Shown here: piece after piece, positions 5,825 through 14,439 of the stretch
How positions within the stretch are numbered: position 1 is the first letter of the stretch
How the letters are laid out: the number at the start of each line of letters is the position of its first letter
From: a virus
Length of the DNA stretch: 23,097 bases
Virus record (IMG/VR): IMGVR_UViG_3300032293_000868
Coordinates: 1 to 23,097 of that record
Reading direction: 5' to 3' (one strand)
Notes under the pieces: generated by a model
Database searches by the model: none
Told to the model about the DNA's origin: nothing
Seen by the model: the letters and a program-made list of their open reading frames with translations, nothing else
Translations under genes and position numbers: made by a program

Positions 5825-5898
5825 CGATCCCTACGAGACTTGAACTCGCAACCTCTACCGTGACAGGGTAGCGCTCTAACCAATTGAGCTAAGAGATC
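5825..5898 (-). tRNA. tRNA-Asp (anticodon GTC)
   Basis: Full cloverleaf on the reverse strand. The 7-bp acceptor stem is GATCTCT/AGGGATC, with a T-G pair at 5-68. The D arm is GCTC/GAGC. The anticodon arm is CTACC-CTGTCAC-GGTAG, with GTC in the loop. The variable loop is AGGTT, and the T arm is GCGAG-TTCAAGT-CTCGT. G is the discriminator base, and no CCA is encoded. It lies immediately downstream of the DUF932 gene and its 3' hairpin. A lone phage tRNA can supplement host decoding or escape tRNA cleavage. Confidence 0.93.
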
Positions 5899-11154: not shown

Positions 11155-11333
11155 GCACTTACCTCCACTTTATAGCAAGCCTCAGAAAATTTACCTTCAT
11201 GAAATCTTGGATTATCAGCAAGGAACCATTCGCTAAATTCAAAAACTAAATCTTGAAAAACGTGAGGGTCCATATAGTCAAGAAATCCATTTAGAATTTT
11301 TGCGGTTTCTACATAGTCTTTTCTAGTCATCAT
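11151..11333 (-). CDS. Conserved small phage protein (TRKDYV... type)
   Basis: 60 residues: MTRKDYVETAKILNGFLDY..., FEFSEWFLADNPRFHEGKFS then EACY. The pattern 'TRKDYV.tA.iL......f...fs..f..dNpRF...kF..AC' is common among phage small proteins. Function unknown. Two adjacent ATGs; the first overlaps the preceding stop (TAATG). Confidence 0.8.
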   Translation of the reverse strand: MMTRKDYVETAKILNGFLDYMDPHVFQDLVFEFSEWFLADNPRFHEGKFSEACYKVEVSA

Positions 11334-11494
11334 TATAGTTGCACCAACTTTTCTACATGTGCAGAAATTTGATTATATGCATTAGCGCAATCATAGCAAT
11401 ATGTTTCAGTAGGGATTCCACCTAGCATGAATGCGTCAATTCCAGAATATACAAGTGCAGTTGATTCGCAATTAACTATTAAACAAGTTTTCAT
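11333..11494 (-). CDS. 53-residue Cys-containing protein
   Basis: MKTCLIVNCESTALVYSGID, then TETYCYDCANAYNQ: Cys at 4 and 9 and C-x2-C at 33-36, a probable zinc site. Coupled to both neighbours by TAATG overlaps. Unknown target. Confidence 0.65.
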   Translation of the reverse strand: MKTCLIVNCESTALVYSGIDAFMLGGIPTETYCYDCANAYNQISAHVEKLVQL

Positions 11495-13353: not shown

Positions 13354-13562
13354 TATTTTACCTCCAAAGGCTCAAAAACATTAACGGAAGTTTCAAGGAT
13401 TATCCAACCCTCAGAAACTTTTTGATCTAAGTAGTCGTTCATAGACTTTTCATCATTGAACAATCCACCTAAGTTAGATGAAGTGTAATTGCTAGAAGTC
13501 TGCAATCCAGACCAACGCAATTCATATTGTTTAGTAGTTACATTTACATTTAGTGAATTCAT
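13353..13562 (-). CDS. 69-residue phage protein, first gene of the 13562-12682 operon
   Basis: MNSLNVNVTTKQYELRWSGL, SSNLGGLFNDEKSMNDYLDQ KVSEGWIILETSVNVFEPLE VK. Small alpha/beta protein. AAAGGA ribosome site. Driven by the divergent control region 13609-13760. The following genes are coupled by TAATG. Confidence 0.72.
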   Translation of the reverse strand: MNSLNVNVTTKQYELRWSGLQTSSNYTSSNLGGLFNDEKSMNDYLDQKVSEGWIILETSVNVFEPLEVK

Positions 13563-13608: not shown

Positions 13609-13758
13609 ACCTAGAAGTATAGCAGAGGGGTCTGACATCTACTAGCCAGTAATCATACCAAAACGGACATTTTGAAATGTGATGTAGGTCATGTGGATAA
13701 CTTGAGCGTGATTTAAAGTGTGATCTATATCATGTGGATAACTTTTTGGGGCCCGAGT
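13609..13758 (-). promoter_or_regulatory. Control region of the leftward 13562 operon
   Basis: In order of transcription: CTCGGGCCCC (about 13747-13756), composite 13719-13741 (Crp-like plus perfect DnaA box), TGAGCGTGAT (+ strand, 13703-13712), composite 13678-13700, AAAATGTCCGTTTTGG (about 13658-13673), TGTCAG (13632-13637), 10 bases, TGC-TATACT (13616-13621), predicted +1 13609. Confidence 0.75.
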
Positions 13759-13764
13759 TATTTT

Positions 13765-13878
13765 GACTGGTCATGAGCGCATCAACCTAAGACTGGTCAT
13801 GAGCAGGGGAGCTCAAGACTGGTCATGTATTGGGGAACCTAAGACTGGTCATAAGCACATATGCACAAGACTGGTCAA
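13765..13878 (+). repeat. Five direct repeats with exactly 26-bp period (iteron-like)
   Basis: GACTGGTCAT at 13765, 13791, 13817, 13843 and 13869 (last copy ends AA instead of AT). The core AAGACTGGTCAT is followed by 14 variable bases. 26 is not a multiple of three, so it is not a protein repeat. It lies between DnaA boxes and the rightward promoters, so it is a candidate origin or operator array. Confidence 0.85.
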
Positions 13879-13879
13879 T

Positions 13880-13979
13880 AGGGCCCGACATTTTTTTGTG
13901 ACGGAGATCACACTAGAAATGTCCGATTTGTCCGTGTCTAAACTTGACTTTTTGAGATTTTTGTGGTAGTATTCTCTTA
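13880..13979 (+). promoter_or_regulatory. Rightward control region and promoter 1
   Basis: GGGCCCGA (13881-13888), TGTGA-N6-TCACA (13897-13912), AAATGTCCG (about 13917-13926), TTGACT (13944-13949), 17-base spacer, TAGTAT (13967-13972), predicted +1 13979. The palindrome is centred about 74.5 bases upstream of +1. The order is the same as on the left strand. Confidence 0.75.
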
Positions 13980-14057
13980 TACAAAATTAAATAAGGTTAA
14001 AAGGTCAATGAGCCTACCAAATAAGGCGAACAAATGTTCGCATGAGCGTAGCAAATA

Positions 14058-14130
14058 AGTGACCTATATCACACAAGATATGCGGCGTGTCGCCTTGACT
14101 TTTCAGGGAATGTGTGCTAGTATTACTACT
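14058..14130 (+). promoter_or_regulatory. Rightward promoter 2 with Crp-like site
   Basis: AGTGA-N6-TCACA (14058-14073, one mismatch), TTGACT (14095-14100), 17-base spacer, TAGTAT (14118-14123), predicted +1 14130. Promoter 1 is 151 bp upstream with the same hexamers and spacer. Confidence 0.72.
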
Positions 14131-14198
14131 ATAAAATTAAATAAGAAATCCTAAGTGAGCCCCTAGCAATAGGGCAAATAAATTAGGTCAAGGAAAGC

Positions 14199-14241: not shown

Positions 14242-14439
14242 ATGACTACACTATATAACTCAATCAAGATTGGTGATACCATCACCATGTCTAACTATTC
14301 TAACCTTGTTAAGTCAGGCATTATCTCATCTATTAGAAAGTGGAATGGATCTGCAATGCAGGTCACTTGCACCAATGGTGCGATTTTCCAATTAAATCGC
14401 TATACCTCAGATTTCTCACTAGCAAGCGAGGTGAACTAA
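14242..14439 (+). CDS. 65-residue small barrel-like protein
   Basis: MTTLYNSIKIGDTITMSNYS, LVKSGIISSIRKWNGSAMQV TCTNGAIFQLNRYTSDF. Similar arrangement to the 55-residue protein at 8308. AAAGGTGG ribosome site. First gene of the rightward operon under two tandem promoters. Confidence 0.75.
   Translation: MTTLYNSIKIGDTITMSNYSNLVKSGIISSIRKWNGSAMQVTCTNGAIFQLNRYTSDFSLASEVN

Follow-up and report, generated by a model that had tools for sequence, protein, structure and literature searches.

What is the function of five near-palindromic sequences, repeated with an exact 26-bp period, between two divergent sets of viral genes? The repeats lie in a 23,097-bp virus record from IMG/VR (such records may be incomplete), which was analysed over its full length and is called the window here. 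To our knowledge, little seems to be known of how early genes are switched on in uncultured actinophages. A comparison over dozens of genomes now places the repeats in a conserved divergent early-promoter hub, as what appears to be an optional operator array of variable copy number.

The array and its repeating unit

The array runs from 13765 to 13878 on the plus strand and is made up as follows:

13765-13774, plus strand: core copy 1, GACTGGTCAT
13791-13800, plus strand: core copy 2, GACTGGTCAT
13817-13826, plus strand: core copy 3, GACTGGTCAT
13843-13852, plus strand: core copy 4, GACTGGTCAT
13869-13878, plus strand: core copy 5, GACTGGTCAA, one mismatch
13775-13868: linkers, 16 nt between cores, consensus (G/A)N(G)(C/T)N6(G/A)CN(T/C)A(A/T)

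The first-pass annotation had these five starts and the exact period right, as well as the arithmetic that makes 26 bp about 2.5 helical turns. Its five repeats are four exact copies and a fifth, GACTGGTCAA, that matches at 9 of 10 positions, and the 14 bases it placed between cores should read 16 nt between 10-bp cores. Neither strand of the window has a further copy of the core, also when one mismatch is allowed, and a literature search with its letters returned no relevant paper.

As a null model we used 60 second-order Markov simulations of the window, searched for 10-mers that match the next copy at 9 or more of 10 positions with a constant period of 11-60. The longest periodic run in the simulated windows was one step, compared with four in the array. 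Since no simulated run exceeded one step, the array is not a chance occurrence.

The core, GACYRGTC(A/T)T, forms a dyad centred on a pyrimidine-purine step. Complementarity between its arms averages 0.59 about this centre (4|5), with values of 0.07-0.43 for the other centres examined, and the central step is pyrimidine-purine in all 48 cores (TG in 40, TA in 5 and CA in 3). The linkers were compared using 23 distinct sequences from 13 records. Three bases are nearly fixed (G13 in 22/23, C22 in 22/23 and A25 in 23/23) and positions 11, 14, 21, 24 and 26 each carry only two bases. The conserved G13, C14, G21, C22 and A25 are mirrored about the core and extend the dyad to approximately 20 bp. We infer from these letters a full unit with the consensus GC-N-Y-A-W-GAC-Y|R-GTC-W-T-R-N-GC, of about 20 bp, together with six free bases. 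The bases between the cores had been described as variable; this holds for the middle six, which diverge, and not for the linker ends, which are partly conserved. Within one array, about half of the linker bases are shared and about half of the positions differ.

The half-sites of the extended dyad are one helical turn apart, as in common dimeric DNA-binding proteins, and successive dyads are separated by about 2.5 turns. The GC arms are absent from the outer sides of the two terminal cores and may therefore matter only between neighbouring units.

Several other identities were considered and rejected. There is no covariation across the linker, that is, no compensatory changes in paired arms. 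This argues against an RNA or cruciform hairpin, though the strand folds somewhat better than mononucleotide shuffles, and also against a series of RNA hairpins or an attenuator, for which the array is in addition misplaced, being upstream of the predicted promoters. It is not coding sequence (a 26-bp period is not divisible by 3, and an ORF that overlaps the array is conserved only together with the DNA). Nor does it look like a CRISPR array, as it consists of a 10-bp core and 16-nt linkers with conserved ends rather than long identical repeats with unrelated spacers.

The divergent promoter region and an apparent leader RNA

The array is located in a 680-bp divergent intergenic region, with leftward genes ending at 13562 and rightward genes starting at 14242. 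The features of this hub are listed below; the promoters and the DnaA and CRP-like boxes are sequence or consensus matches only.

13616-13637, minus strand: leftward early promoter, with -10-like TATACT (13616-13621) and the conserved GTCTGACA signature (13630-13637)
13663-13669, minus strand: ACGGACA element of leftward early promoters
13678-13693: CRP-like site, TGTGATGTAGGTCATG, 2 mismatches
13692-13700, minus strand: DnaA-box 9-mer, TTATCCACA
13719-13734: CRP-like site, TGTGATCTATATCATG, 2 mismatches
13733-13741, minus strand: DnaA-box 9-mer, TTATCCACA
13749-13756: array left-edge element, GGGCCCGA
13881-13888: array right-edge element, GGGCCCGA
13897-13912: CRP-like site, TGTGACGGAGATCACA, exact palindromic arms
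13920-13934, plus strand: TGTCCG-N3-TGTCCG before the rightward promoter, the same element as ACGGACA
13944-13972, plus strand: rightward promoter 1, TTGACT-N17-TAGTAT, consensus match
14002-14065, plus strand: apparent leader RNA downstream of rightward promoter 1, three helices with repeated UGAGC/CAAAUAA internal loops
14095-14123, plus strand: rightward promoter 2, TTGACT-N17-TAGTAT, consensus match
14150-14187, plus strand: apparent second leader after rightward promoter 2, one UGAGC/CAAAUAA loop

The promoter signatures recur over the relatives: TATACT, GTCTGACA and ACGGACA on the left, and TGTCCG, TTGACT and TAGTAT on the right. From the end of the array (13878) to the nearest -35 hexamer (13944) there are 66 bp and no overlap of operator and promoter, so the array is not an occluding operator. 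In all 14 arrays identified, a CRP-like TGTGAN6TCACA site (at most one mismatch) has its centre at a distance of 13-55 bp from one edge, on the early-promoter side. The distances from array to CRP-like site and from array to promoter vary; for the CRP-like site this means that there is no fixed phase.

Some of these elements are more widely distributed. Copies of GGGCCCGA border the array at both ends in the window and in the relative G004, and others are present at further promoters of the window (7090 and 12633 on the plus strand; 2665, 9604 and 10981 on the minus strand). AAAACGGACA(T), a candidate phage-specific promoter element, precedes early promoters in the window (13663, 12216 and 19226), in relatives and in a distant relative, G019 (18350 and 20933). 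CRP-like TGTGAN6TCACA palindromes number 393 in 1.3 Mb of relatives (L075-L151), and DnaA-box 9-mers about 400 in the same set, both far above control patterns. The CRP-like sites occur in intergenic regions of the window between 5047 and 13912 and are clustered in the early region of the complete relatives examined.

The stretch 14002-14065 covaries strongly and looks like an undescribed structured leader RNA, with a predicted fold that reads GGUCA-AUGAGC-CUAC-CAAAUAAG-(hairpin)-AUGAGC-GUAG-CAAAUAAG-UGACC. Over 16 distinct sequences, pairing holds in 91% of cells, and 43 cells are changed on both sides; shuffles gave 16 (none of the 500 reached 43) and slid versions no more than 6. A covariance model of the leader gave 77 matches in 89 sources, and most relatives carry the leader; its 56 distinct rows contain 107 doubly changed cells against 25 when shuffled, in an alignment that was fitted to the structure. 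Rfam contains no match to the leader: the only match at gathering level in the window is a tRNA (5825-5898), and a hit in the hub is at chance level. The second leader reads CCTAA-GTGAGC-CCCTA-GCAA-TAGGG-CAAATAAA-TTAGG. The leader RNA may be a more general feature than the array. Its apical hairpin (14026-14041, GCGAACAAATGTTCGC) also fits the actinobacterial LexA box pattern CGAACNNNNGTTCG, but is more likely an RNA stem since other relatives have TGTGAN6TCACA or unrelated stems at this position.

Distribution in related viruses

Viral contigs, a set from which very close relatives may be missing, were scanned for two cores at 26 bp and for a degenerate dyad pair. The comparison of repeat number in relatives, proposed at the outset, gave 14 arrays of 2-6 copies each in the relatives examined, with core and spacing kept:

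L009/G004: 5 copies
L011/L012 (G006/G007): 6 copies and a second array of 2
L006/L010/L013 (G003/G005/G008): 3 copies
G001 and G002: 2 copies each
L020: 5 copies and a second array of 2
L050: 5 copies
L308: 2 copies
L309: 4 copies
L310: 2 copies
G018/L073: degenerate core pair

The arrays occur at three different early promoters and always upstream: at the divergent hub, at the promoter next to its left (G006, L020 and G018) and at a third promoter (G001, G002 and L308). G001 (IMGVR_UViG_3300046787_000327) has a 127-bp direct terminal repeat that contains its two-copy array and marks the 112,951-bp contig as likely complete.

Most relatives have no array. Among 80 loci fetched with an L5-gp88-type protein, cores in an array were found only in L072, L073 and L074. 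A rule-based search recognised 39 orthologous hubs, of which 37 are without a dyad core. Array-less hubs retain an element of the ACGGACA type and between one and four CRP-like sites, and most also have DnaA-box 9-mers. The distance from CGGACA to the -35 hexamer is mostly 90-180 bp (a few are longer) in hubs without an array, compared with 304-319 bp in two hubs with one. Judging from the core-less hubs and these shorter distances, the hub is otherwise conserved, and the array is an optional piece of about 110-140 bp inserted into it. Relatives lacking the core or the spacing had been named as evidence against the first interpretation, and such relatives exist only in the sense that most have no array.

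Searches further afield gave little. No nucleotide match to the window was found in an annotated phage collection. A genome scan for host copies, with two cores at 26 bp required, gave 8 records, of which none had an actinobacterium in its title; a scan with AAGACTGGTCATNAGC returned mostly loci with no second core nearby, and one for ACGGACA near the dyad returned 52 loci, about the estimated chance number.

The distribution bears directly on the main rival to an operator array, a replication origin in which an initiator bound to the repeats as iterons, and host DnaA bound to the two boxes, would open the DNA, as at P1 oriR or lambda ori. The arrangement is suggestive, in that a non-coding divergent region combines five tandem repeats with two exact DnaA-box 9-mers beside them, and the cumulative GC-skew minimum of G002 is near the hub, though gene direction flips there too. 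An essential origin nevertheless fits poorly: 37 of the 39 orthologous hubs are without the array and most of them keep their DnaA boxes; G006 and L020 have two arrays, and so not a single retained origin; in G001, G002 and L308 the array is at another promoter, and in the first two the nearest DnaA box of the exact type is kilobases away. No replication initiator was recognised by Pfam or PHROG among the window genes scanned. We therefore consider an iteron origin unlikely.

Spacing requires more caution. Of 34 intervals in the arrays of relatives, 31 are 26 bp and three are 25 bp, the latter being the same first interval in G006, L020 and L050, inherited by descent. In a distant relative (L008/G019; 52% GC, DUF932 protein 61% identical), two exact cores are 22 bp apart and adjoin the ACGGACA element AAAACGGACA, so the 26-bp rule is valid for the family only. 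Duplicating a 26-bp unit in tandem yields constant spacing for free, and the earlier claim that spacing is under selection has to be qualified accordingly: core and period are conserved in relatives, but duplication may explain part of this. The arrays contain one indel only, despite linkers that differ at about half of their positions, whereas pairwise alignments of the flanking hub contain 31 gap events per 428 substitutions. At the hub rate the arrays should contain several indels, which supports selection on spacing, although the comparison is rough because repeat units are not independent.

The array could also be a by-product of slippage or unequal recombination, a promoter-distal site that was multiplied and is tolerated with little function. 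The copy number of 2-6, linkers about half identical within an array and the many relatives that live without one are all compatible with this. We regard it as improbable, since it is the middle linker bases that diverge and not the cores, central changes preserve the pyrimidine-purine step and independent arrays at three promoters share the 26 bp. Conserved cores and spacing, together with divergence of the middle six linker bases, are best read as an array of protein sites with constrained spacing.

If proteins bind the cores, they might be titrated rather than regulate: as a decoy or sponge, the copies would draw a host regulator from its own targets and would not act on neighbouring promoters. 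Multiple copies of high similarity, their variable number, optional presence and the absence of a fixed phase to promoters would suit a sponge. Each genome has few copies (2-8), and the arrays are always beside early promoters, which a sponge does not need. This role seems decidedly improbable.

Candidate regulators, interpretation and known systems

The leftward genes of the window are small and of early type, and include a DUF932 protein and the L5-gp88-type protein. The nearest named relatives of the early proteins are from Streptomyces and Mycobacterium phages, all with less than 60% identity. All seven relatives tested (90-114 kb), with and without arrays, have a gene for WhiB, a protein known in actinobacteria and their phages, and the host is on this account most likely an actinobacterium.

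The same seven relatives are without HTH_3 (PF01381), that is, without a CI-type HTH repressor of that family, and without a tyrosine integrase. They are also without ParB_N (PF02195) and ParA-type AAA_31 (PF13614), although four carry arrays. With the lack of an integrase, this makes it highly improbable that the array is a partition (parS-like) centromere for plasmid-type maintenance, even though actinophages with direct-repeat parS sites exist, such as RedRock with eight 8-bp repeats (PMC7157519).

Two products of the window were considered as array binders and rejected. A LacI-type HTH domain is fused to an endonuclease VII domain at 776-1441 on the minus strand; this protein has no homologue in 12 relatives, most of them array-bearing, and is probably a mobile endonuclease. 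A 53-aa cysteine-rich early protein (11333-11494) is present in three array genomes, missing from three others and also found in loci without arrays. Among complete relatives, no gene has the same distribution as the array. The first-pass remark that no repeat-binding protein is obvious in the window thus holds, the LacI-type fusion included. A host regulator and a phage protein without a recognised domain are equally possible as the binder.

The best explanation, to which we give about an even chance, is that the units are tandem operators for a dimeric DNA-binding protein through which early transcription is tuned, and that this array is an optional feature specific to the lineage. Each 26-bp unit would comprise one operator of about 20 bp (GCNYAW-GACY|RGTC-WTRNGC) and a 6-bp spacer. 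A dimeric sequence-specific protein, of phage or host, would dock on each dyad. Adjacent dimers, offset by half a helical turn, would sit next to one another on the DNA, perhaps binding cooperatively. The loaded dimers would then shape early-gene transcription from promoters 80-190 bp away, with the array acting between the CRP-like sites of two back-to-back promoters. The proposal of a protein chain that wraps the DNA receives no support here.

Support for the operator reading comes from the repeats and their dyad symmetry, from spacing that is conserved, a location next to early promoters and optional presence, from the lack of linker covariation, and from the two cores that are also beside ACGGACA in the distant relative. 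Features typical of operator arrays are present: repeated, closely adjacent dyads of roughly 17-20 bp, and a location between or upstream of early promoters (as predicted from consensus). The reading is weakened by the failure to find a binder, by the unfixed distance from array to promoter and by tandem duplication, which could explain part of the spacing. More specifically, and only tentatively, the array might be a movable enhancer-like cis module, in which regulator dimers every 2.5 turns balance two back-to-back early promoters; copy number would be adjustable and the promoters would carry sites that resemble those for the host regulators CRP/GlxR and DnaA. The remaining probability falls to something outside the explanations listed. 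In practical terms, the array provides a defined 114-bp DNA bait for the regulator, and hubs with and without it provide natural pairs for studying its role.

Among known systems, parS of RedRock-type mycobacteriophages consists of 8-bp direct repeats and is accompanied by parAB genes (PMC7157519, in which P1 and lambda are also mentioned). The array resembles it in having direct repeats in an actinophage, protein-bound in RedRock and putatively so here, and differs in its 26-bp units and in having no parAB. It also differs from a classical activator site, as its distance to the promoter is not fixed. The stoperators of Cluster A mycobacteriophages are short, phage-specific repressor sites, asymmetric and dispersed over the genome. 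The array shares with them short putative sites near early genes, but its sites are dyads in a compact array. Iteron origins of the P1 and F plasmids and the lambda ori combine DnaA boxes with nearby tandem repeats of about 20 bp, as the array does in the window; the array is however missing from most relatives, present twice in some and located at different promoters, with no linked initiator recognised among the window genes scanned. In lambda OR/OL, adjacent dyad operators of 17-20 bp, with centres spaced at 20-26 bp, lie between divergent early promoters. The array is similar in having adjacent dyads between divergent early promoters, on which dimers could bind side by side. It differs in that no HTH_3-type repressor is found in the relatives of the array phage, and in having up to six operators at a regular 26 bp, at least 66 bp from the nearest promoter hexamer.
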